NCBI RefSeq assembly: GCF_000021485.1
Contig: NC_011761.1
Location: forward strand, 1,580,001 to 1,644,000
Source: Acidithiobacillus ferrooxidans ATCC 23270
GTDB taxonomy: Bacteria > Pseudomonadota > Gammaproteobacteria > Acidithiobacillales > Acidithiobacillaceae
DNA length: 64,000 nucleotides
Reading direction: 5' to 3'
Part shown: in pieces, positions 21,311 to 55,379 of the stretch
How the letters are laid out: every line of letters begins with the position of its first letter
How positions within the stretch are numbered: position 1 is the first letter of the stretch
Made by a program: the position numbers and the translations under genes
Notes under the pieces: model-generated
Told to the model about the DNA's origin: nothing
Database searches by the model: none
Seen by the model: only the letters and a program-made list of their open reading frames with translations

Positions 21311-23341
21311 ATGACAACTCCAACAGCCCCCTTTGGGGGGGAATACACATCCATTGATCAGCTTTCTATCAATACGATTCGCACGCTGGCTATGGACGCT
21401 GTGCAACAGGCCGATTCAGGGCATCCAGGGACGCCCATGGCGTTGGCTCCAGCCGGCTACGTGCTATGGACGCGATTCCTTCGACACCATCCGTGCAATC
21501 CCATGTGGTTCAACCGGGACCGCTTCGTCTTATCGGCTGGGCATGCCTCCATGCTGCTGTATGCCTTACTCCATCTCAGCGGATATGACCTTTCACTCGA
21601 AGAAATCCGGCATTTTCGTCAATGGGGCAGCAAGACTCCCGGACATCCGGAATACGGCCTCACTCCAGGGGTAGAAACCACCACTGGCCCTCTTGGTCAG
21701 GGCCTGATGAACGCGGTGGGCATGGCCATGGCCGAGGCCCATTTGGCAGCCCGCTTCAACCGGCCGGGATATGAAATCATCAATCACCAGACCTACGTTT
21801 TTTGTAGTGACGGCGATCTCATGGAGGGGGCATCCCACGAAGCCGCTTCCCTGGCTGGGCATTTAGCTTTGGGCAAACTGATCGTGCTCTATGACGACAA
21901 CCACATTACCATCGAAGGGAGTACGGCACTGGCCTTTTCCGACGACGTCGCCCGGCGTTTCGACGCTTACCATTGGCATGTCCAAAACCTGGGCGAGGCG
22001 GCGAATGAGCTCGACACATTGGAGAACGCCTTCCGTAATGCGCAGCAGGAAAGCAATCAGCCCTCCTTGATCATCGTCCGGTCTCATATCGCCTATGGCG
22101 CCCCTCATGCCCAGGATACCGCCAAGGCCCATGGAGCCCCGTTGGGGGAAGCGGAGATTCGTGCCACGAAAGCGTTCTATGGATGGCCACCGGACGCCGG
22201 ATTCCTCGTCCCGGATCCGGTGTTAATGCATATGCGTCAGGCTCAGGAGCGCGGGGCGGATCTGGAATCGGCATGGAATCGGAAATTCGAAGCCTATCAG
22301 AAGGATTACCCCCAGGAGGGCGCCCATCTGATAGCGGCCATGGCGGGGGAGCTTCCTGAAGGTTGGGACGAGAACATTCCCCACTTTACTCCTGAGGATG
22401 GCCCCATGGCGACTCGGGTGGCCTCCGAGAAGACTTTGAACGCTTTTGCCGATAAGGTTCCCTGGTTGATGGGCGGTAGCGGAGATCTGGCGCCGTCCAC
22501 CAATACCCGGATCGCCAGTTCCGGGGATTTTGAAAAAGACGGTTACAAAAATCGCAACATTCACTGGGGGGTGCGCGAGCACGTCATGTGTGCCGCCTGT
22601 TCCGGTATGGCGCTCCATGGCGGGATTCGCCCTTATGGCGCAAGTTTTCTGATCTTCACCGACTATGCGCGGCCGGCCATCCGTCTCGCCGCCATGATGA
22701 GGCTGCCCGTGATTTACGTGATGACCCACGATTCCATCGGTCTCGGGGAAGATGGACCGACGCATCAACCGATAGAACATCTGGCGTCGTTCCGCGCCAT
22801 GCCCAATCTGTGCGTAATCCGTCCAGCCGATGCCAACGAGGCGGCCTATGCGTGGCGTGCGGCCATCATCCGCCGGGACGGGCCTACGATGCTCGTCCTT
22901 ACGCGGCAATCCCTTCCCGTATGGGACCGCAGCCTTCTCGGTGAGGCCAGAGGGAGCATGCAGGGGGCCTATGTGCTGTCCCGAGAACGGGGCGGTCGCC
23001 CTCATATTCTTCTCCTAGCCAGCGGTTCCGAGGTGCAGCTCGTTCTGCAAGCCCAGGCCAAACTATACGAGCGAGGAATAGATGCCCGGGTGGTCAGCAT
23101 GCCCAGCTGGGAGCTGTTCCGCGCCCAGCCAGCGGCTTACCGGGATACGGTGCTCCCACGAGATATCAAAGTCCGGCTCGCCGTAGAGGCTGCGGCATCC
23201 CTGGGGTGGTGCGAATGGGTGGGAGAGGGCGCCACCATAGGCCTGAGCCGCTTCGGCGCCAGTGCACCCTATCCAGAAAATTTCCGCCATCTGGGATTCA
23301 CCGTGGATAATGTGGTACAGGAAGCCCAACGGCTATTATAA
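21311..23341 (+). CDS. tkt: transketolase
   Basis: 676 aa, a full-length thiamine-diphosphate enzyme exchanging two-carbon ketol units in the Calvin and pentose-phosphate cycles. Seen are [19 protein letters not shown] at residue 35, the cofactor motif [20 protein letters not shown] near 160, and the pyrimidine-domain motif [20 protein letters not shown] near 475. SD GGAGGAA precedes the ATG. It stands alone behind a broken glycosylase gene; whether it belongs to the CO2-fixation set of this organism cannot be told from here. Confidence 0.96.
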
Positions 23342-28649: not shown

Positions 28650-29906
28650 TCACGGATCGGAAGAATCGGGAGGAGAGCGAATGATTTCCACGGCGGCGCT
28701 GTGGCGCAGATAATCCGTTCCCCAGTCGAGGAGGGTGAGCAGGCGATTGCGGGTGCCGATGATGTGGTAGAGGTGCAGCCCCAGCCAGAGCAGCCAGGCA
28801 CTCCAGCCATGCCAGTGCAGATGCCAGCGTTCGATCTCGCAGACCGCATCGAAACGGCCGATGACGGCCATGCTGCCAGGGTCCCGGTAGGCGAAAGGGG
28901 GAGGGAGGGGCCGCCCTTGCCGTTGGGATTGCAGCACTAGGGCGACGTGGCGGGCACTCTGCAGGGCAAAGGGTGCAACCTGGGGCCAAAATTCACCGTT
29001 ACTGCTACAGGCCAGGTCGCCGAGGATGAAGACCTCGGGGTATTCCGGCAGGCGCAGGTGGGGATCGACGATGATTCGTCCACCGGGTCCCCGGGCACCG
29101 GGCATGGTGGCCGCCAGAGGATTGGCCGTTACGCCGGCGGTCCAGACGAGGGTACGGGCAGGAATAGCCGGGTCCGGCTGGCATTGCACCATTTGCCCGT
29201 CAAATCCCTGGACATGGGTGTGAAAGCGCAGTTGGGCGCCGAGTTTTTGCAGCTTGCGGGCGGCTTGGCCCTGCAGGGGCGCGGAAAAGCCGGGAAGCAG
29301 GGCGGCGCTGCCCTGCACCAGGGTGACTTGCAGATCTTCCAGGCGCAATTCCGGGTAGTCGCGGGGGAGCACGACGCGCAGGAGCTCCAGCAGGGCAGCG
29401 CAAAATTCCACCCCGGTGGGGCCGCCTCCGGCAATGACGAAGCTGAGCCAGCGCTGCTGTTGGGCGGGGTCTGTGCAGTGGCTGGCTGCCTCCAGAGCAC
29501 TGAAGATGTGCGAACGAACCGCTTCCGCCGCTTCCATGCCTTTGATCTGCAGGGCATGGTTGGCGATGGCGGCATTGCCGAAAAAGTTGGTGACGGTGCC
29601 GAGGGCGATGAATAGGTAATCATAGGAAAGGATGTCACCGTCATCGAGCAGGATCGAACGCTGGGGGAGGCGCAATCGGGCGACCCGTCCCAAGCGAAAA
29701 TGCAGGCCGCCGCGCAGGAGGCGCCTTTGCGGCGTGGCGATGGCCTCCGCCTGGAGATCTCCGGCGGCCACCTGGTAGAGGAGGGGCTGGAAGAGATGAT
29801 AATTGCGCTGGTCGATCAGGGTCACCTCCAGCCCTTGACCCCGGAGCGCGCGTGCGGCGGCGGTGCCGGCAAAACCGCCGCCGAGAATGAGAACACGTTC
29901 AGTCAT
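28650..29906 (-). CDS. ndh: type II NADH dehydrogenase (NDH-2 family)
   Basis: 418 aa from the ATG at 29906, overlapping the MFS gene stop by 8 bp. Two Rossmann folds: FAD site VLILGGGFAGTAAARAL at residue 5 and NADH site FVIAGGGPTGVEFCAALLEL near 157, plus VFILGDLACSSNGEFWPQVA near 293, before the C-terminal amphipathic membrane anchor (WLLWLGLHLYHIIGTRNRLL). It oxidises NAD(P)H without proton pumping and passes electrons to quinone. As last gene of the operon with a glucose-dehydrogenase-like SDR, it could reoxidise the NAD(P)H produced there. Sulfide:quinone reductase is a relative, but its Cys motif is not present. Confidence 0.85.
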   Translation of the reverse strand: MTERVLILGGGFAGTAAARALRGQGLEVTLIDQRNYHLFQPLLYQVAAGDLQAEAIATPQRRLLRGGLHFRLGRVARLRLPQRSILLDDGDILSYDYLFIALGTVTNFFGNAAIANHALQIKGMEAAEAVRSHIFSALEAASHCTDPAQQQRWLSFVIAGGGPTGVEFCAALLELLRVVLPRDYPELRLEDLQVTLVQGSAALLPGFSAPLQGQAARKLQKLGAQLRFHTHVQGFDGQMVQCQPDPAIPARTLVWTAGVTANPLAATMPGARGPGGRIIVDPHLRLPEYPEVFILGDLACSSNGEFWPQVAPFALQSARHVALVLQSQRQGRPLPPPFAYRDPGSMAVIGRFDAVCEIERWHLHWHGWSAWLLWLGLHLYHIIGTRNRLLTLLDWGTDYLRHSAAVEIIRSPPDSSDP

Positions 29907-31056
29907 GGGGCCTGGTCCCTTGGGCATGGGCAGGCTGGCTGTTGCGCCAGGCCAGCCAGACGAGGGGGATGGCCCAGAGGGCCGAGAGGGTATAGATGGG
30001 GCCGAGGCGGAGCAGATCCTGCAGGGGGCCAAGCCCGAAGGAGCCGATGCCTTCGCCCACCATGAGGGCCCCGACTAGAAGCCCGGCCATCTGGGTGCCT
30101 TCTTCGGGGTGGGCGGCAATGCCGTAGGCCATGCTGTAGGGATAGTAGATGCCGCAGGCGACCCCGGCGGCGGTGAACGCCATGAGCAGGGCGCTGGCGG
30201 TGATGAGCTGGGGGATGAGCAGGAAGCACGCGGCCATCCCCAGGGGGGCGAGCAGATAGACGATCCGGCGGTGCAGCAGGCGGTTGGGAATGAAGCCCAG
30301 GGCAAAGCGCGCGGCGGTCATGCCGCCCCAGAAGAGGGCCAGGGCGAGGGCGCCGCTGGCGGCGGGCAGACCGCGGTTGACGCTCACCAGGACATTGGCC
30401 CAACTGCCGAAGCTGCCTTCGCAGATGGCGTAGATCAGCACAGCACCGGCAAAGGGGAGCATGGAACGACGCCAGGCGCGCAGGCCGCCCAGCTCCGCTG
30501 GACCAGCGGCGGCAATGGGCAGCAGGAGCAGGGCCAGCCAGGCAAGGGCGAGGAGGGCCGGCCAGCCGGCCCAGCCGATGCTGCTATGAAAGCCTTCGAG
30601 GATCAGGGGCGAGATTGCGGTGGCGCCGCCGATGACGGCGTTGAGGATGGTCACCGCCGCTGTGGCGGCTCCGGCAAAGAGAAGGGAGGCGGAGCGGTTG
30701 ATGGCGGCGTTGGTGAGGCCGAAGCCGATGCCGAGAAGGAGGGTTTCGGCAAGGATCAGTCCATACGCGAGGCCGCTGTCCGTAAAGGCGGCGGCTACCA
30801 GCAGGAACATGGCGGCGGCGTTGCTCAGCGCCCCCAGGCGAAAGACGCCGGAGCCACCGAGGCGGCTGTGGATGCTGCCGGCGGCAAGGGCGCTGAGGAT
30901 GGCGCCGATGATCTCGGGGAAATATAAGAATCCATAGGCGCTGCTGCCGAAAGCGTAGGGAGCCTGGTGCAGGATGTGGCCCAGGGCGGGGACCATGACG
31001 AAGGCCGCCCCCTGCAAAAAGCCCGCGGTGTAGACGGCGGCGGCGCCGCGTTTCAC
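29899..31056 (-). CDS. MFS-type membrane transporter
   Basis: 385 aa, very hydrophobic, about 12 predicted helices arranged in two halves (AYGFLYFPEIIGAILSALAA, LLLGIGFGLTNAAINRS, RFALGFIPNRLLHRRIVYLL, VACGIYYPYSMAYGIAAHPE). The N-terminal half resembles sugar-transporter-like MFS permeases. It overlaps the GMC gene by 4 bp and ndh by 8 bp, so it is translationally coupled. The likely cargo is the substrate or product of the oxidoreductases in the operon. Confidence 0.8.
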   Translation of the reverse strand: MKRGAAAVYTAGFLQGAAFVMVPALGHILHQAPYAFGSSAYGFLYFPEIIGAILSALAAGSIHSRLGGSGVFRLGALSNAAAMFLLVAAAFTDSGLAYGLILAETLLLGIGFGLTNAAINRSASLLFAGAATAAVTILNAVIGGATAISPLILEGFHSSIGWAGWPALLALAWLALLLLPIAAAGPAELGGLRAWRRSMLPFAGAVLIYAICEGSFGSWANVLVSVNRGLPAASGALALALFWGGMTAARFALGFIPNRLLHRRIVYLLAPLGMAACFLLIPQLITASALLMAFTAAGVACGIYYPYSMAYGIAAHPEEGTQMAGLLVGALMVGEGIGSFGLGPLQDLLRLGPIYTLSALWAIPLVWLAWRNSQPAHAQGTRPHD

Positions 31057-32585
31057 GCCCAGGCCCCTGTTTTGAAGCGTTCGGCCAGATGCGCGGCGAC
31101 GCGGATGGCATTGGCCATGATGGTGAGGGAGGGGTTGACCGCGCTGATGGAGGGCATGAAGGAGGCGTCCACGACATAGAGGTTGGCGAGGTCATGGGCC
31201 CTGCACCAGGGATCCAGGACACTGTCCGCAGGGTCTTCGCCAAAACGGCAGGTGCCCACCTGATGGGCAGTGGCGGAGATGTCCATGGCCTGAAAGAAGA
31301 CCATGGGAAAGCCGGCCTGGTGGAGAATCTTGCGCCATTGGTCACAGAGGCGCTGGTGGCTTTCGCGGTTTTTGGGTTGCCACGCGAGGCGGATATGGCC
31401 GTCGCTGTCGAGGGTGACCCGGTTGCCGGCGTCGGGCAGGTCTTCGGTGGTGAGCCACCAGTCCACGGAGTGGCTGGCGGTCCAGGCGACGAGGGGAATG
31501 GGGAGCAGGGGCTGTTGGGCATGGAGCAGCGCCGGCGTGACCTTGCCGAGATTCTGGATGTGGCCGAGGGGATAGGGATAATCGGGGTCGCCCGAGTCGT
31601 CGTAAAAATCGTTGATGGCCAGGGTTTTCTGGAAGACGGTGGTGTTTTCCTGGGCGGCTTTGAGGGCCATGCAGGCGCTATTGAGATGGCACATGTAGTT
31701 GCGCCCGACCTGATCGCTGCTGTTGGCGAGACCTTGGGGCGCGGCGGCATCGGCGGAGGCGAGGAGGAGGGCGGCGGAGTTTACGGCGCCGGCGGCAAGG
31801 ACGACGACGCGGGCGCGCAGGGTGCCCTGATCGGTTTCCACACCTTCCACACCCCTGCCGTCGCCGCCAGGCAGCAGGCGCAGGACGCGATGCCGGGTGA
31901 GCAGGCGGACGTTGGCGTGGGCCAGGGCGGGGGTGACACCGCAGACTTCGGCATCGCCCTTGGCGTGCAGCAGGCAGGGGAAGCCGTCACAGGTGGGACA
32001 ACGCACGCAAGGGCTATGGGCGGGGTCTTCCTCGTTGCGGTGGAGGGCGAGGGGGAGGGGAAAGGGGTGCAACCCCATATTCCGCAATTTTTGCTCCAGG
32101 GCTGCGAGGAGGGGCTCGTGGGGGAAAGGGGGGAAGGCGAAGGGACCGCGGGGCGGTTCCAGGGGATCGGCACCGGCCTGACCGTGGGTGAAGTACCAGG
32201 CCTCGGCCTGGTCATAGTGGGGCGCGAGATCGGCGTAGGCGATGGGCCAGGCGGGGGTGAGGCCGTCGCGATGGTGACGGGGAAGGAAATCTTTTTCGCG
32301 CCGGCGCAAAACGGCCGCCCCGTAGAACTTGGTGTTGCCCCCCACATGATAGCCGGTAACGGGGGTGAAAATCTGGCCGTCGCCATCGTGCCACTGTTCA
32401 GGGGTATGGTAGCGGTGTTCGGCAAAGACGGTGTGTGGGTCCCAGTTGCCCCATTCGCGGGGGAGGTAGTCGCCGCGTTCGAGGATGAGGATGGACAGTC
32501 CTGATGGGGCGAGGGCGCGGGCCAGGGTGCCGCCGCCGGCGCCGCTGCCGATGATGATCACATCGGCGTCGAGGTTAGCCGCCAT
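31053..32585 (-). CDS. GMC-family FAD oxidoreductase with a four-Cys insert
   Basis: 510 aa from the ATG at 32585. The frame is open further upstream, but that part is only the shadow of the SDR gene. FAD-binding DADVIIIGSGAGGGTLARAL at residue 5; substrate-domain end HQVGTCRFGEDPADSVLDPW and the GMC C-terminal motif SISAVNPSLTIMANAIRVAA. Between them a CVRCPTCDGFPC stretch plus a later Cys (AEVC) could hold a metal or iron-sulfur centre. GMC enzymes oxidise alcohols or sugars; in this operon a carbohydrate is likely. It overlaps the SDR gene by 11 bp and the MFS gene by 4 bp. Confidence 0.87.
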   Translation of the reverse strand: MAANLDADVIIIGSGAGGGTLARALAPSGLSILILERGDYLPREWGNWDPHTVFAEHRYHTPEQWHDGDGQIFTPVTGYHVGGNTKFYGAAVLRRREKDFLPRHHRDGLTPAWPIAYADLAPHYDQAEAWYFTHGQAGADPLEPPRGPFAFPPFPHEPLLAALEQKLRNMGLHPFPLPLALHRNEEDPAHSPCVRCPTCDGFPCLLHAKGDAEVCGVTPALAHANVRLLTRHRVLRLLPGGDGRGVEGVETDQGTLRARVVVLAAGAVNSAALLLASADAAAPQGLANSSDQVGRNYMCHLNSACMALKAAQENTTVFQKTLAINDFYDDSGDPDYPYPLGHIQNLGKVTPALLHAQQPLLPIPLVAWTASHSVDWWLTTEDLPDAGNRVTLDSDGHIRLAWQPKNRESHQRLCDQWRKILHQAGFPMVFFQAMDISATAHQVGTCRFGEDPADSVLDPWCRAHDLANLYVVDASFMPSISAVNPSLTIMANAIRVAAHLAERFKTGAWA

Positions 32586-33360
32586 GACGGAAATCGGGGT
32601 AGATGAGCATGCCGCCATCGACGGCGATGGTGGTGCCGGTAACGTAGCTGGCCAGGTCGCTGGCGAGGAAGGCCGCGACATGGCCGATCTCCTCCGGCGT
32701 GCCAAGGCGTTCCATGGCGATCTTGTCGTCGAGATCCTTGAGGCTATCGGGGTTGCCCCAGACGGCTTTGTTGATGGGGGTCTTGATAGCGCCGGGGGCG
32801 ATGGCGACCACGCGGATGCCCTTGTCGGCCGTTTCCTGGGCAAGGGTCTTGGTGAACATGGAGAGTCCCGCCTTGGCGCTGGTGTAGGCGCTGTAGCCCT
32901 CCCAGGGAATGAACTCGTGTACCGAGGTGATGTTGATGATGACGCCGCAACCGCATTTTTCCATGCGCGGGATGGCGGCGCGGGCACAGTAGTAAGGGCC
33001 CACGAGATCGACGGCGAGGACTTTTTCCCAGAGCTGCGGGTCATCGTCGCCGACGACGGCGCGGGGACCATCCATGCCCGCGTTGTTGACGAGGATGTCG
33101 AGACCGCCAAAGGCGCCGTCGATCTCCCGCAGCAATCTTTCGACGGCGGCCGGATCGGAGATGTCGGCCTGGAATGCCTGCGCCTTGCCGCCTTTGCCCT
33201 GGATGGCGGCGACGACTTGCTCGGCCTCGGCCTGCCCCTTGCGGTAATGAACGGCGACTTGGGCGCCGGCGGCCGCCAGGATTTCGGCGATGGCCTGGCC
33301 GAGGCCGCCGCTGGCGCCGGTGACCAGGGCACGGCGTCCGGTGAGATCGATGGCAATCAT
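32575..33360 (-). CDS. short-chain dehydrogenase, glucose 1-dehydrogenase type
   Basis: 261 aa from the ATG at 33360 with AAGGAG nine bases upstream. Cofactor loop ALVTGASGGLGQAIAEIL, NNAGMDGPRAV, active-site Ser in INITSVHEFIPWEGYSAYTS with Tyr and Lys in AYTSAKAG, and the tail YVTGTTIAVDGGMLIYPDF. The SVHE-IPW segment and the DGGM--YP-F end are the pattern of Bacillus glucose 1-dehydrogenases, which oxidise beta-D-glucose to gluconolactone with NAD(P)+. Its ATG overlaps the stop of the upstream gene (ATGA). Confidence 0.87.
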   Translation of the reverse strand: MIAIDLTGRRALVTGASGGLGQAIAEILAAAGAQVAVHYRKGQAEAEQVVAAIQGKGGKAQAFQADISDPAAVERLLREIDGAFGGLDILVNNAGMDGPRAVVGDDDPQLWEKVLAVDLVGPYYCARAAIPRMEKCGCGVIINITSVHEFIPWEGYSAYTSAKAGLSMFTKTLAQETADKGIRVVAIAPGAIKTPINKAVWGNPDSLKDLDDKIAMERLGTPEEIGHVAAFLASDLASYVTGTTIAVDGGMLIYPDFRHGG

Positions 33361-33899
33361 GCGTTTTCTCCTTGCAGGGTGATGCTGAAGTCCTCGCCCT
33401 GCCACTGGCCGGTATCCCGCCAGTAGAAGGGGAAGTGGAGCGTGGTTCCGGCAGCCATTGTCTGCGTGGGCAAAATAGCGACATGGCCGAGATCCCAATC
33501 TTCCGACAGGGTGTCCGTGGGGTCTTGCCAGCCATCGACTCCCCGATGCACCGTAAAGGGTGCCGAGAGCAGGAAACGCAACTCATTGCCGGTGGGCATT
33601 TGCCGGAAGCGCCAGTGGGTGATGGCGGGTAAAGGGACGACCGGATCGTCGATCTGCAATTGCGGCTCGGGCAAGGCCTTGAGCTCCTGCCAGAAACCCT
33701 TGCCATCGGCAATGATCAAACCCATGTCCCGGACCTGGGGGACGTCGATGCGCGGATAAAAGACCTCCGTGACAATGCCCTTGCCGACGGTGAACCAGAG
33801 CCGGGCCGGGCCGGGGGCGGTGCCGACGAGGGCTTTTTGGGCGGTGGACCAGACCGGATGGCGCCAGGTGGCGCTGGGGGCTTTGCTCGCTGCTTCCAT
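33357..33899 (-). CDS. stand-alone N-terminal domain of a bacterial glucoamylase (GH15-N)
   Basis: 180 aa from the ATG at 33899 (GGAAGGA about 11 bases upstream). The sequence matches the beta-sandwich that precedes the catalytic barrel in prokaryotic GH15 glucoamylases and glucodextranases: WSTAQKALVGTAPGPARLWF, VGKGIVTEVFYPRIDVPQVR, DMGLIIADGKGFWQELK. The catalytic alpha/alpha-barrel is absent and there is no signal peptide, so it cannot hydrolyse glucan alone. It is first in a five-gene overlapping operon with two sugar-type oxidoreductases, suggesting a carbohydrate-binding or assembly role. Confidence 0.75.
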   Translation of the reverse strand: MEAASKAPSATWRHPVWSTAQKALVGTAPGPARLWFTVGKGIVTEVFYPRIDVPQVRDMGLIIADGKGFWQELKALPEPQLQIDDPVVPLPAITHWRFRQMPTGNELRFLLSAPFTVHRGVDGWQDPTDTLSEDWDLGHVAILPTQTMAAGTTLHFPFYWRDTGQWQGEDFSITLQGENA

Positions 33900-34722: not shown

Positions 34723-35276
34723 TGGGGGCGGGAAGGGCGCGTCCGTGAGGCGCTTATCGCCTTGCTCCTGGTGGCGATCCTGGGGGGCGCTCTGATTGTG
34801 GTTGTAGCCAGGGGGCAGCGACTCGTGCGGACTGCCATGCCGACCATCACCTTGCCGTCGCTGCGAAGTCCGCCCTGATCCAGGGGGACAAAGGCGTCCG
34901 ATATCTTGTCGGAGGATCGCTGGAACGACATAAGAAACAGTAACTTAAAATTTTTTCTAGGTGTTTTTGTTTTTGTGGGCCAATCCAGGGCTGGTCGCGG
35001 TGGTGCATCTGACCGCGACCGGGACATTATTTCTTCACGCCTGTACTTCGGATTCGATACTACCTGACCAATAGGTACGGGGCATGGGTTCTTGACATTA
35101 CACCAAGCTTCAATGTTTACCATGGCCTAGTGGTGGGTTATACGCAGAGTATCGGTGGTTATCCGTGGCCGAGGTTTCACTCCGGTACCTGGCTGACGCC
35201 CTGCGCAATCGAATGGCAGTTCATACGGGCAGTTTCATTAATTCCTTTACACCTAACTTTCAACAGGAGAGAACCC
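34723..35276. other. stretch with a possible membrane peptide and the copZ control region
   Basis: Directly after phhB, and in the same frame, about 45 codons read ALIALLLVAILGGALIVVVA followed by a short polar tail up to a stop near 34878. No normal start codon precedes it, so I do not call it a gene. The rest is non-coding and contains the candidate operator at 35092. Confidence 0.4.
35092..35116 (+). promoter_or_regulatory. candidate MerR-type promoter/operator for copZ
   Basis: TTGACA (35092-35097) overlaps the dyad ACATT-N12-AATGT (35095-35116). The arrangement resembles CueR/MerR operators, which sit in long 19-bp spacers; the expected -10 here (TTACCA) is poor. A copper-responsive regulator would fit the downstream chaperone. 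No merR-like gene is in the window. Confidence 0.3.
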
Positions 35277-35501
35277 ATGAGCGATATCAGATTGAAGATC
35301 ACCGGCATGACCTGCGGACACTGCGTGCGGGCCGTGACCAAGGCGCTGGAAGGCATACCTGGTGTGGAAAAGGCGGACGTTACGCTGGAGCCGGGAGAAG
35401 CCGTGGTGCATGGTCTGGCGGACACCGCCACGCTGATCGCCGTGATCAGGGAGGAAGGCTATGAGGCGGAAGAGTGCAAAAAGTCACAGAGCGGATCGTA
35501 G
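35277..35501 (+). CDS. copZ: copper chaperone, heavy-metal-associated domain (CopZ-like)
   Basis: 74 aa with AGGAG before the ATG. It is a single ferredoxin-like HMA domain with the metal-binding motif GMTCGHC (Cys13, Cys16) and the usual pattern VTKALEGIPGVEKADVTLEP. Soluble CopZ/Atx1-type proteins bind Cu(I) and deliver it to P-type ATPases or repressors. No ATPase gene is adjacent. Confidence 0.9.
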   Translation: MSDIRLKITGMTCGHCVRAVTKALEGIPGVEKADVTLEPGEAVVHGLADTATLIAVIREEGYEAEECKKSQSGS

Positions 35502-52287: not shown

Positions 52288-55200
52288 TCAGGCTTCCCGG
52301 GAATTTTGAGGTTCCCGTAAATCCTTGGCGAGTATCATATAGATGGCTGGCACAACGAAGAGCGAGAAAAAAGACCCGATAGCCAGCCCGGTAAAGATTA
52401 CCAGACCCATGTCGAAGCGGCTGACCGCCCCGGCTCCACTCGCCAGCAAGAGGGGCAATACGCCCAGCACCATCGCACCGGTGGTCATGAGAATGGGCCG
52501 CAGGCGGATGCTGGAGGCTTTTTCCACGGCGGAGCGCTTGTCCAGCCCTTCGTGTCGCTGGATCTGGTTGGCGAACTGGACGATGAGGATGCCTTGCTTG
52601 GCGATGAGGCCAATGAGAGTAATGAGGCCCACTTCGGTGTAGATGTTGATGGTGGCCAGCCCCAGACTGATGAAGATCAGCGCCCCGCTGATGGACATAG
52701 GCACCGTGATGAGCACGATGAGCGGATCGCGAAAGCTCTCGAATTGCGCGGCGAGGAGCAGATAAATGAGGAGGATGGCCAAGGCAAAGGTAACCAGCAG
52801 CCCGCTTTTCTCCTGCATATACTGCCGCGACTGGCTGGAGTAGTCGATGGAGAAGCCCTTGGGCATAATGTTCTGGGCCTGGGTTTTCAGATAAGCCAAT
52901 GCTTGGCCGAGGGTCACACCGGGGGCGGGCACCGCCTGAATGGTGGCGGAATTGAGCTGCTGGAACTGCGGCAGAAACTGCGGTTGCACCTCCGTTTCCA
53001 CCGACACCAGGGTGGATAGCGGCACCATCTGCCCCGTTGCAGTAGCTACGTAGTAGGTCTTGAGCATGCCTGGGTTGGCGCGGAAGTGGTCCGGCACCTG
53101 CGGGATCACTTCATAGCTCCGGCCTTTCAGATCAAATCGATTGACGTAATTGCCGCCAAGCAGCGGTTGCAGATCCTGCGCGATATTCGCCATGGTCAAG
53201 CCGAGGTTGGCGGCCATATTGCGATGGATGTGAAGGACGATTTCCGGATTGTCGATGCGCAGATCCTTGGTCACGTAGACGAACAGGCCGCTTTTCTGGG
53301 CGCGGTCGATGACATCGTTGGCCACCTGGTCCAGCTTGTCGTAACCTCCACTCGACTGCAGCACGAATTGAACCGGCAGCCCCCCGGCGGACCCTGGCAG
53401 GGACGGCGGTTGGAACGACGCCACCTGCAGACCGGTGATCCCGTTCATTTGCTGTTGTACCTGGGGCGCCAACTGCATGGCGGTTACCGATCGCTTGTCC
53501 CAGTTTTTCAGCCGCATGCCGGCGATGAGACTGTTCGTTCCGCCACCACTGCCAACGGATATCCCCGTGACCATGAAGACGGCCTTGGTCTCCGGATACC
53601 TGCCCAGGTCATGGACGATTTTCATGCCGTACTTGCTCAGTAGTTCCGGGGTGATGTTGGGCGCGCCCGTACCCATATTGAAAATGATACCCTGATCTTC
53701 CTGCGGCGCCAGTTCCTGTTTGCTCGTGGTGAAGAGGAAATAAATGCTCACGAATATCACGGCGGCAAAAAGCAGGGTCACCGGCACGAAGTTGAGGCTA
53801 CCCCGGAGCAGCCGATCGTACAGGCGGCGCAGTTCCTCGTAGCGGGTATCGATGAAGTGGGCGAATCCATGCGCGCTGCTGGCTCGGAGTATCTTGCTGC
53901 TGAGCATGGGCGACAGGGTCAGCGCCACCACCATGGAAACCACCACGGTAGCCACCAGCGTAAAGGCGAACTCGCTGAAAAGACTGCCGGTCAGACCGCT
54001 CATGAAGCCGATGGGGGCAAAGACGGCGATCAGCGTGGTGGACATCACCACGATGGCGGTACCCAGCTCCCGACCAGTCATCAAGGCCGCTTGGAGGGGG
54101 CTTTTGCCCTCGTCGATGTGACGGTGCACGTTTTCCACCACGATGATGGCGTCATCCACCACCAGGCCGATGGCCAGAACGATGGCGAGCAGGGTGAGCA
54201 GGTTGATGGTGAAGCCCATGGCCCACATGATGAAGCCGGCACCGATGATGGACAGGGGAATGGCCACCGCCGGGATGAGCACCGAACGGAAGGAACCCAG
54301 GAAGAGGAAGATCACCAGAACCACCACTGCCAGCGTGATACCGATCGTTATGAGAACGTCGTTGATGGAGGCCTTGATGTAGTCCGTTGCGTCGTAGGGG
54401 ATGGCCATGTGCATGCCCGGCGGAAGGGCAGTGCCGAGTTCAGCCAGGGCCGCCTTGACTCCCGCCGCGACATTCAGCGAGTTGGCCGACGGTGCCTCCT
54501 GAATACCGACGAAAGCCGCCGGTTTGCCGTCAAAATAAGCGCTGGAATCGTAATTCTGCGCTCCGAGTTCTACCTGGGCGATGTCCTTGAGGCGGATGAT
54601 GGTATTACCCACATTTTTGACCACGAGGTTGCGGAACTGCGCCGCGTCATGGAGGTTGGTGGTCGCGACGATAGTGTCCCCCGTCTCGGTCCCCCGGGTG
54701 CTCCCTACCGCCGAGATGAAGTCGTTGGCGGCCAGAATCTGGGATACCTGGGACGCGCTGATCCCGAGGGCTGCCATCTTCCGGGGATTGAGCCAGACGC
54801 GCATGGAATACGTATTGCCGTTCCCGGAGCCGGGCGGCAGGATCTGCGCCTGACCCACGCCGCTGACCGCCGCGAGCTTGGGCTGGACCACCCGCAGGAG
54901 GTAGTCGGTAATCTGCTGCTGGTTCAATTGGTTGCTGTAAAAGGCGATATACATGAGATCCGTGGTATTGCCCACGGTCACGTTGATCACCGGCAACTGG
55001 CTGCCGGCGGGCAGTTCGTTGGTCACCTGCTGGACCTTCGACTGGATATTGGCCACCGCCGCGTCGGGGCTGTAATTCAGTTTCATGTACACGGTGATGG
55101 TGGACATGCCCTCGGAACTGTTGGAGGTCATGTAGTCGATGCCGGGGGCGCTGGCGATCACCCGCTCCAACCGGGTGGTGATGAAGCCCTGGATGGTGTT

Positions 55201-55368
55201 GGGATTGGCGCCGGGGTAGGCCGTGGTTACCGTAACCACGGTGTTGGTGATGGCCGGGTACTCGCGCACCGTCATTTCGGTATAAGCCCGTAATCCGAGA
55301 AGGAGGATCACCAGACTCAAGGCCGTAGCCAGAACCGGTCGATGAATGAAGATATCCGTAAATTTCAT
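52288..55368 (-). CDS. RND efflux pump inner-membrane subunit (HAE-1 family)
   Basis: 1026 aa from the ATG at 55368 (GAGG nine bases upstream, overlapping the adaptor stop); an ATG at 55377 is possible. The two-fold RND layout is clear: helix 1 HRPVLATALSLVILLLGLRA, a large periplasmic loop, then the TM4 proton-relay pair in LAIGLVVDDAIIVVENVHRH and a matching half near residues 840-1015. The sequence is closest in style to MexB/MexF/MdtB multidrug pumps rather than CzcA metal pumps: it lacks the CzcA DFG-DGA-VE motif in TM4. With adaptor and outer-membrane channel it forms a full tripartite pump. Confidence 0.93.
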   Translation of the reverse strand: MKFTDIFIHRPVLATALSLVILLLGLRAYTEMTVREYPAITNTVVTVTTAYPGANPNTIQGFITTRLERVIASAPGIDYMTSNSSEGMSTITVYMKLNYSPDAAVANIQSKVQQVTNELPAGSQLPVINVTVGNTTDLMYIAFYSNQLNQQQITDYLLRVVQPKLAAVSGVGQAQILPPGSGNGNTYSMRVWLNPRKMAALGISASQVSQILAANDFISAVGSTRGTETGDTIVATTNLHDAAQFRNLVVKNVGNTIIRLKDIAQVELGAQNYDSSAYFDGKPAAFVGIQEAPSANSLNVAAGVKAALAELGTALPPGMHMAIPYDATDYIKASINDVLITIGITLAVVVLVIFLFLGSFRSVLIPAVAIPLSIIGAGFIMWAMGFTINLLTLLAIVLAIGLVVDDAIIVVENVHRHIDEGKSPLQAALMTGRELGTAIVVMSTTLIAVFAPIGFMSGLTGSLFSEFAFTLVATVVVSMVVALTLSPMLSSKILRASSAHGFAHFIDTRYEELRRLYDRLLRGSLNFVPVTLLFAAVIFVSIYFLFTTSKQELAPQEDQGIIFNMGTGAPNITPELLSKYGMKIVHDLGRYPETKAVFMVTGISVGSGGGTNSLIAGMRLKNWDKRSVTAMQLAPQVQQQMNGITGLQVASFQPPSLPGSAGGLPVQFVLQSSGGYDKLDQVANDVIDRAQKSGLFVYVTKDLRIDNPEIVLHIHRNMAANLGLTMANIAQDLQPLLGGNYVNRFDLKGRSYEVIPQVPDHFRANPGMLKTYYVATATGQMVPLSTLVSVETEVQPQFLPQFQQLNSATIQAVPAPGVTLGQALAYLKTQAQNIMPKGFSIDYSSQSRQYMQEKSGLLVTFALAILLIYLLLAAQFESFRDPLIVLITVPMSISGALIFISLGLATINIYTEVGLITLIGLIAKQGILIVQFANQIQRHEGLDKRSAVEKASSIRLRPILMTTGAMVLGVLPLLLASGAGAVSRFDMGLVIFTGLAIGSFFSLFVVPAIYMILAKDLREPQNSREA

Positions 55369-55379
55369 CGCCGCCATCC

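Follow-up and report, generated by a model that had tools for sequence, protein, structure and literature searches.

Why does Acidithiobacillus ferrooxidans ATCC 23270 carry a tightly packed run of genes resembling those for releasing and oxidising a sugar? Acidithiobacillus is regarded as an autotroph for which making NADH costs energy. We analysed a stretch of 64,000 nucleotides (the window; positions 1,580,001-1,644,000 of one 2,982,397-bp contig) encoding, in gene order, a GH15-N protein, an SDR, a GMC flavoprotein, an MFS-like transporter and a type II NADH dehydrogenase (NDH-2). A preliminary description made from the letters alone had read these five genes, overlapping by 4-11 bp, as a sugar-oxidation chain into the quinone pool. 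The overlaps were confirmed as 4, 11, 4 and 8 nt, both 4-nt overlaps (GH15-N/SDR and GMC/MFS) being stop/start overlaps, and Pfam and NCBIfam agreed with the proposed family names (Glucodextran_N, adh_short_C2, GMC_oxred_N/C, and Pyr_redox_2 with NDH2_C in Pfam; the MFS protein fell just below the cut-off). The results showed that the window carries one copy (copy A) of a conserved GH15-SDR-GMC-MFS operon with NDH-2 added at its end. The outline of the proposed chain stood, namely sugar oxidation, possibly of glycogen-derived sugar and possibly into quinone; the role given to GH15-N did not, and those given to NDH-2 and to transport are unproven. On balance, we lean towards a reading in which glucose from an internal alpha-glucan is oxidised, two broken operons share one pathway, and NADH passes to quinone via NDH-2.

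The first gene had been taken for a working GH15-N protein. Its Glucodextran_N match in Pfam (residues 7-95) covered just profile positions 1-90 of 263, and its residues 1-99 and 88-180 matched sites approximately 2 kb apart in relatives, which are both ends of one ~787-aa GH15 gene. The protein alignment showed that residues 1-95 are kept and followed by just the C-terminal ~85 residues of the full-length protein, with approximately residues 96-698, including the entire Glyco_hydro_15 domain, gone from the window copy. Glu438 and Glu636 of the glucoamylase 1lf6, which we take to be its catalytic residues, aligned with E427 and E631 of an intact GH15 encoded elsewhere in the genome (copy B), and the positions matching both lie inside the stretch deleted from copy A; the window gene has neither the catalytic domain nor the two glutamates. 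The deletion keeps the frame and leaves the 4-nt overlap with the SDR gene intact. As judged by these alignments, the gene is what an in-frame deletion left of a GH15 glucosidase of ~787 aa, and this remnant is almost certainly catalytically dead.

The same junction was recovered in L134, a contig of 3,283 bp from a different assembly, of which 3,282 bp matched at 99.7% identity with 9 mismatches and 0 gaps; this gap-free match across the junction ruled out an assembly artefact. A second deletion of 12 nt at the junction was unneeded, the shorter form being already present in A. ferruginosus CF3. In the predicted structure of the remnant, residues 1-98 had a predicted local distance difference test score (pLDDT) below 50 and most of the remainder formed a moderately confident beta fold; therefore, on this model, the remnant is not a folded N domain of GH15. 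The idea that it works as a domain of its own, such as a mutarotase-like helper, was ruled out because relatives hold both halves in one full-length gene, and the low pLDDT of the N-terminal half also disfavours it. A fold search with the remnant model gave weak matches, a CBM56 among them and none at an E value of 0.001 or better. The C-terminal beta domain of GH15 (copy B residues ~692-786; window 33357-33615) is conserved, lies beyond the glucodextranase and glucoamylase matches, and had this weak fold match to CBM56.

The intact GH15 belongs to a second operon, copy B, situated ~362 kb from copy A at genome positions 1,976,273-1,979,412, or 1,976,273-1,979,560 with the scar described below (L102 10274-13560). 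Its GH15 (786 aa; 1,976,273-1,978,630) was 74% identical to the cluster-type GH15 and carried both domains (PF00723, 5e-28; PF09137, 1e-71) with both glutamate positions filled. Its residues 9-691 matched the GH15 enzymes glucodextranase (1ug9) and bacterial glucoamylase (1lf6; E 8.5e-106), with Glu at the places of the 1lf6 catalytic residues; unlike these enzymes, the copy B protein has ~95 extra C-terminal residues, and the window copy differs from them in having no catalytic domain. By a simple hydropathy count, no N-terminal hydrophobic signal was seen in the copy B GH15, which fits an internal substrate. An SDR gene follows, its product 85% identical to the window SDR, and after it lies a scar in which the first dozen or so GMC codons are joined to the last part of MFS, with MFS residues 343-375 matched. 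Thus, GH15 and SDR survive in copy B, from which GMC and MFS have gone, whereas copy A lost GH15 and kept the remainder; between them, the two operons include every gene in intact form at least once. The job of the lost GH15 is probably done by the intact copy elsewhere in the chromosome, and we infer that the two broken operons jointly carry one pathway. A penicillin-binding protein gene ends immediately before the copy B GH15 start. A third GH15 gene (G000:C1:2214264-2216255; L103) was 39-43% identical and had no SDR or GMC match in 16 kb. GH15 is also mentioned in Sulfobacillus in the available part of PMC5418355.

The two operons were also found in related genomes. In G012, a relative whose closed genome measures 2.92 Mb, copies A and B each comprise all four genes; a broken MFS in its copy A, suggested by a stop in the codon comparison, proved to be merely a slightly shorter C terminus. 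In A. ferruginosus CF3 the copy A GH15 has decayed by different deletions, with stops, and the copy B scar is present too; there the copy B GH15 is intact and most of the copy B SDR is lost, leaving one copy each of GH15, SDR, GMC and MFS, with the GMC, split over two contigs, presumed intact. In the GMC tree, the A. ferrooxidans-group copy A sequences (6 rows) grouped in one clade, next to a second clade with 16 rows from Acidithiobacillaceae and related taxa, and the copy B GMC of G012 fell in the latter; copies A and B are either old paralogues, or one of them was acquired.

Could the whole copy A operon instead be decaying, its overlaps and remnant a functionless relic? The first gene is broken, and copy B as well as three further genomes of the family have lost GMC and MFS. 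Against this, the ratio of non-synonymous to synonymous substitution rates (dN/dS) was 0.08-0.24 for SDR, GMC, MFS and NDH-2 in comparison with copy A relatives (the G012 MFS, with a stop near its end, left out), the SDR lying at 0.08-0.11, and the SDR, if it is the AFE_1857 of published work considered below, has been detected as a protein and is regulated according to the available text. We regard decay of the entire operon as very improbable. Purifying selection was evident in every scorable gene pair (dN/dS 0.05-0.24). Because low dN/dS was accompanied by a gene order that recurs in other genomes, the gene set represents more than chance.

That recurrence was quantified in tallies starting from 60 loci, each gene being counted only where the flank sufficed; the loci are non-independent, mostly from Acidithiobacillaceae and other Proteobacteria, and include four pairs from one genome each (L002/L003, L004/L012, L014/L015 and L020/L056). 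An SDR was found near GMC in 47/57 loci, six of these being distant (30-42% identity), MFS accompanied GMC in 38/51, and GH15, full or partial, in 26/45 (decayed L056 included). The preliminary description had proposed a search for the same gene order; the linkage turned out to be conserved, and the absence of linkage that it had named as contrary evidence did not occur. The conserved set is GH15-SDR-GMC-MFS, and NDH-2, presented there as an integral member, is an add-on. Individual cases of NDH-2 linkage were found further afield: it overlaps GMC by 4 nt in L047 (Acidimicrobiales) and lies 1.8 kb downstream of GMC in L043 (Armatimonadota).

The association of GMC with GH15 extended beyond immediate neighbours. 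Among 29 genomes of the family, GMC was present in 24, counting genes interrupted at contig ends, and the GH15 type accompanied it in 23; the remaining one, G008 (assembly 85% complete), holds only a truncated GH15. Eleven proteobacterial genomes have SDR-GMC-MFS without a flanking GH15, a reading that is weaker where the upstream flank was short (L026, 1.0 kb; L029, 3.2 kb), and 10 of them encode a full or nearly full-length GH15 elsewhere at 51-55% identity, the genome of L018 being the one without. Against this association, in a class sample of 369 genomes, scored on the best few candidates per genome, GMC was present in 9, GH15 in 28 and both in 4 (Fisher p 0.003; 0.015 when the genome under study is left out; neither corrected for kinship). 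In six distant genomes (a cyanobacterium, two Actinomycetota, two Verrucomicrobiota and one Myxococcota), a GH15 match was absent in four and partial in two (32-36% identity), and a GH63/MGH1-like hydrolase (cluster c10; Pfam checked on one member) lay near GMC in 5 loci of distant phyla. The GH15 partnership is therefore that of the proteobacterial branch.

These neighbourhoods also bear on mixotrophy, in which the MFS protein would import an external sugar for oxidation by SDR and GMC, NDH-2 would respire the NADH, and GH15 would be an optional neighbour. The frequent position of MFS after GMC and the loci without an adjacent GH15 are in its favour. However, nearly all of the eleven proteobacterial genomes without an adjacent GH15 have one elsewhere, and the lack of a signal-like N terminus in the copy B GH15 fits an internal substrate. 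The MFS protein, which contained 50 hydrophobic windows, scored 30.7 bits against the MFS_1 cut-off of 33.4 and had no relatives in the PDB at an E value of 0.01, so that import is just one possible direction. Mixotrophy of this kind is unlikely in our assessment, and the favoured reading keeps an internal alpha-glucan as the source of glucose.

The preliminary description had called the SDR glucose-1-dehydrogenase-like, and its nearest solved relatives bore this out: of the eight PDB chains that matched best (best E 1e-56), one carries the name 'dehydrogenase' and the other seven glucose (1-)dehydrogenase, and its closest characterised relatives are glucose 1-dehydrogenases. It is alike to the Bacillus NAD(P)-glucose 1-dehydrogenase (1rwb, 1gee, 1gco) over residues 5-260 (E 1e-56), with the stretches SVHE-IPW, GAI-TPIN and a C-terminal YP-F in common. 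Unlike the Bacillus enzyme, it is encoded in an operon with GMC, MFS and NDH-2 and scores under the specific NCBIfam cut-off; the broader glucose 1-dehydrogenase model NF005559 was passed (232 bits against a cut-off of 215). The comparison of loci added a substitution. A zinc glucose dehydrogenase (PF16912) adjoins GMC in L043 and stands immediately before GH15-GMC in L033, a third case (L035) was read by eye from the translation, and an SDR match is absent from all three gene runs. This swap of two unrelated glucose dehydrogenases is our strongest argument for glucose oxidation as the step. Taken from sequence comparison, the SDR is quite likely a glucose or aldose 1-dehydrogenase.

For the GMC protein, the top profile matches were the catalytic subunit of flavin adenine dinucleotide (FAD)-dependent glucose dehydrogenase (FAD-GDH; 3.8e-56) and fructose dehydrogenase (FDH; 5.5e-46). 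Its AlphaFold model (pLDDT 86.7; predicted template modelling score 0.91; loop 200-203 with pLDDT below 50) gave FAD-GDH and FDH as the first nine Foldseek matches (template modelling score 0.77-0.83), so that the FAD-GDH alpha subunit of Burkholderia cepacia (6a2u) and the FDH large subunit (7w2j) were the best matches by both profile and fold. His441 and Asn484 align with His476 and Asn519 of FAD-GDH and were invariant across a hand-picked alignment of 30 GMC rows (A1). In a wider set of 51 rows (open reading frames above 440 aa from a cluster of 58 loci, duplicates removed), Cys193, Cys196 and Cys204 were present in 51/51 and Cys199 in 50/51. In FAD-GDH, three of Cys212, 213, 218 and 222 bind a 3Fe-4S cluster and His105 is the FAD-linked residue, according to the available part of PMC6719666. 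The four-Cys motif of the window protein aligns at the place of those cysteines with a different spacing, C-x2-C-x2-C-x4-C versus CC-x4-C-x3-C in FAD-GDH and FDH, and, unlike in these enzymes, Phe87 occupies the place of His105 (read from the alignment), leaving the window protein without the FAD-linked histidine. A mycofactocin MftG identity was ruled out (69.5 versus 387 bits, the NCBIfam cut-off). We consider the GMC protein probably an Fe-S sugar or aldonate dehydrogenase. One locus of an Oscillatoriales cyanobacterium has, between SDR and GMC, an open reading frame of 499 aa (L040 8470-9969) whose product combines binding domains for NAD, FAD and 2Fe-2S and is a possible electron partner of GMC.

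The substrate of GMC and SDR might nevertheless be something other than glucose, such as another aldose, a polyol, a glucosylglycerate-type solute or a toxic alcohol or aldehyde, with GH15 a neighbour of convenience. Both superfamilies are broad, the SDR also passes a FabG model, and the GH63/MGH1-like neighbour of GMC in other phyla belongs to a family that includes mannosylglycerate hydrolases. This alternative is difficult to reconcile with the names of the best SDR structures, with the unrelated glucose dehydrogenase standing in for the SDR in three gene runs, and with both nearest GMC structures oxidising hexoses, and we consider it improbable. Under the favoured reading, glucose is the sugar oxidised.

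The last gene product is an NDH-2 by domain content, with Pyr_redox_2 and the NDH-2 C-terminal domain, and by closest structure: it matched the type II NADH:quinone dehydrogenase 9mqy (also 4nwz) over residues 4-401 (E 1.4e-65). Unlike these solved enzymes, it is encoded in a sugar-oxidation operon, and lies near GMC in part of the relatives. Whether it works with this SDR is close to an even question, and we put it slightly on the doubtful side.

Published expression data could be connected to the locus by gene order. Window genes match, in order, proteins labelled in the available text of PMC6450195: transketolase AFE_1843 (21311-23341), heavy-metal-binding AFE_1862 (35268-35501) and RND AFE_1880 (52288-55377). 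A 'glucose dehydrogenase AFE_1857' would lie between AFE_1843 and AFE_1862, and on this gene order AFE_1857 is very probably the window SDR. In the accessible text of that paper, AFE_1857 is named where sugar proteins with raised levels in cells of pyrite biofilms are discussed. An analogue of the quorum-sensing acyl-homoserine lactones (AHL) represses AFE_1857 in planktonic cells, alongside AFE_1799, AFE_2082, AFE_2083 and AFE_2836, which are assigned to glycogen/maltodextrin, two of them also to trehalose synthesis (PMC5021923, as far as its text was available). This co-repression is a correlation and fits a link to internal glucan. Our literature searches found no paper on Acidithiobacillus that also treats GMC together with glucoamylase, or 'GMC family oxidoreductase', none naming AFE_1854, 1855, 1856 or 1858, and, judging by the titles returned, no account of the operon beyond the papers naming AFE_1857. 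The parts are of known kinds; for their combination, for the opposite breakage and for a four-Cys GMC with no cytochrome, these searches found no published description.

In the mechanism that we favour, the copy B GH15 would free beta-glucose from internal alpha-glucan, and the SDR would convert it to gluconolactone with NAD(P)+. The GMC protein, an FAD protein with a probable Fe-S cluster, would oxidise the sugar or sugar acid, NDH-2 would hand electrons from NADH to ubiquinone, and the MFS protein would carry sugar or sugar acid across the inner membrane. If this holds, an autotroph could burn stored glucan without phosphorylating it, which would explain living off reserves once iron or sulfur runs out, for example in ore biofilms.

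Several observations weigh against this reading. Complementary losses of this kind could have arisen as redundant copies decayed at random: when 3 of 8 gene copies are lost, the probability that no gene loses both of its copies is, by our arithmetic, 32/56. GMC and MFS are dispensable, since 3/29 family genomes (G001, G018 and G021) keep GH15 and SDR without MFS or a working GMC; in the class sample, 24/28 GH15-positive genomes had no GMC and 5/9 GMC-positive genomes had no GH15 at the cut-off used. NDH-2 was near GMC in just 10/45 loci, a tally that omits L047 (contig ends early), L045 (opposite strand) and L058 (partial, under the score limit), and the genome has one other NDH-2-like gene (38% identity). 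The SDR missed the cut-off of a second glucose-1-dehydrogenase model (NF006493; 241 against 420 bits), and it also passed a FabG model (NF009466; 226 against 222 bits). Its link to AFE_1857 is one of gene order, with no annotated record; no hitchhiker or cytochrome c gene is present among the five genes (the part of the genome searched); and a measured activity was found for none of the five proteins.

A broader, tentative proposal, which we think doubtful as a whole, is that these genes represent a non-phosphorylating route, so far undescribed, for the respiration of stored alpha-glucan in autotrophic acidophiles. In this route, GH15 would free glucose, and an interchangeable SDR or zinc-dependent MDR glucose dehydrogenase would capture the first two electrons in NADH; a cytosolic GMC, its four-Cys Fe-S site being of a new type, would pass further electrons to quinone without a cytochrome subunit. 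GMC and such a dehydrogenase would then form an old module spread over up to six phyla, in which distant SDRs are just 30-42% identical. The GMC family, with its conserved four-Cys motif and no cytochrome partner, would offer a testable new branch related to glucose-sensor enzymes. The opposite breakage of the two operons also warns that a truncated gene in an operon need not be a designed small protein.

Table 1. Features of the copy A operon, in window positions
Feature	Position	Strand	Remarks
GH15 remnant (GH15-N), 180 aa	33899-33357	minus	N-domain residues 1-95 joined in frame to last ~85 residues of full-length protein
Deletion junction (approximate)	33605-33618	minus	~1.8 kb absent relative to full-length relatives
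SDR, glucose 1-dehydrogenase-like, 261 aa	33360-32575	minus	Pfam, NCBIfam and PDB matches
GMC flavoprotein, FAD-glucose/fructose dehydrogenase type, 510 aa	32585-31053	minus	Cys193-x2-Cys196-x2-Cys199-x4-Cys204; His441/Asn484
MFS-like transporter, 385 aa, GTG start	31056-29899	minus	Just under Pfam cut-off
Type II NADH dehydrogenase (NDH-2), 418 aa	29906-28650	minus	Pyr_redox_2 and NDH2_C

A scan for promoters and terminators gave nothing above chance, with 3 promoter-like sites against 1.2 expected and 4 terminator-like sites against 4.3 expected. Contigs 93-94% identical to the window GMC were also found in records of other taxa, namely L002 and L003 (labelled as a Gallionellaceae metagenome-assembled genome) and L001 (labelled A. 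sulfuriphilus), where they reflect contamination, misbinning or transfer.

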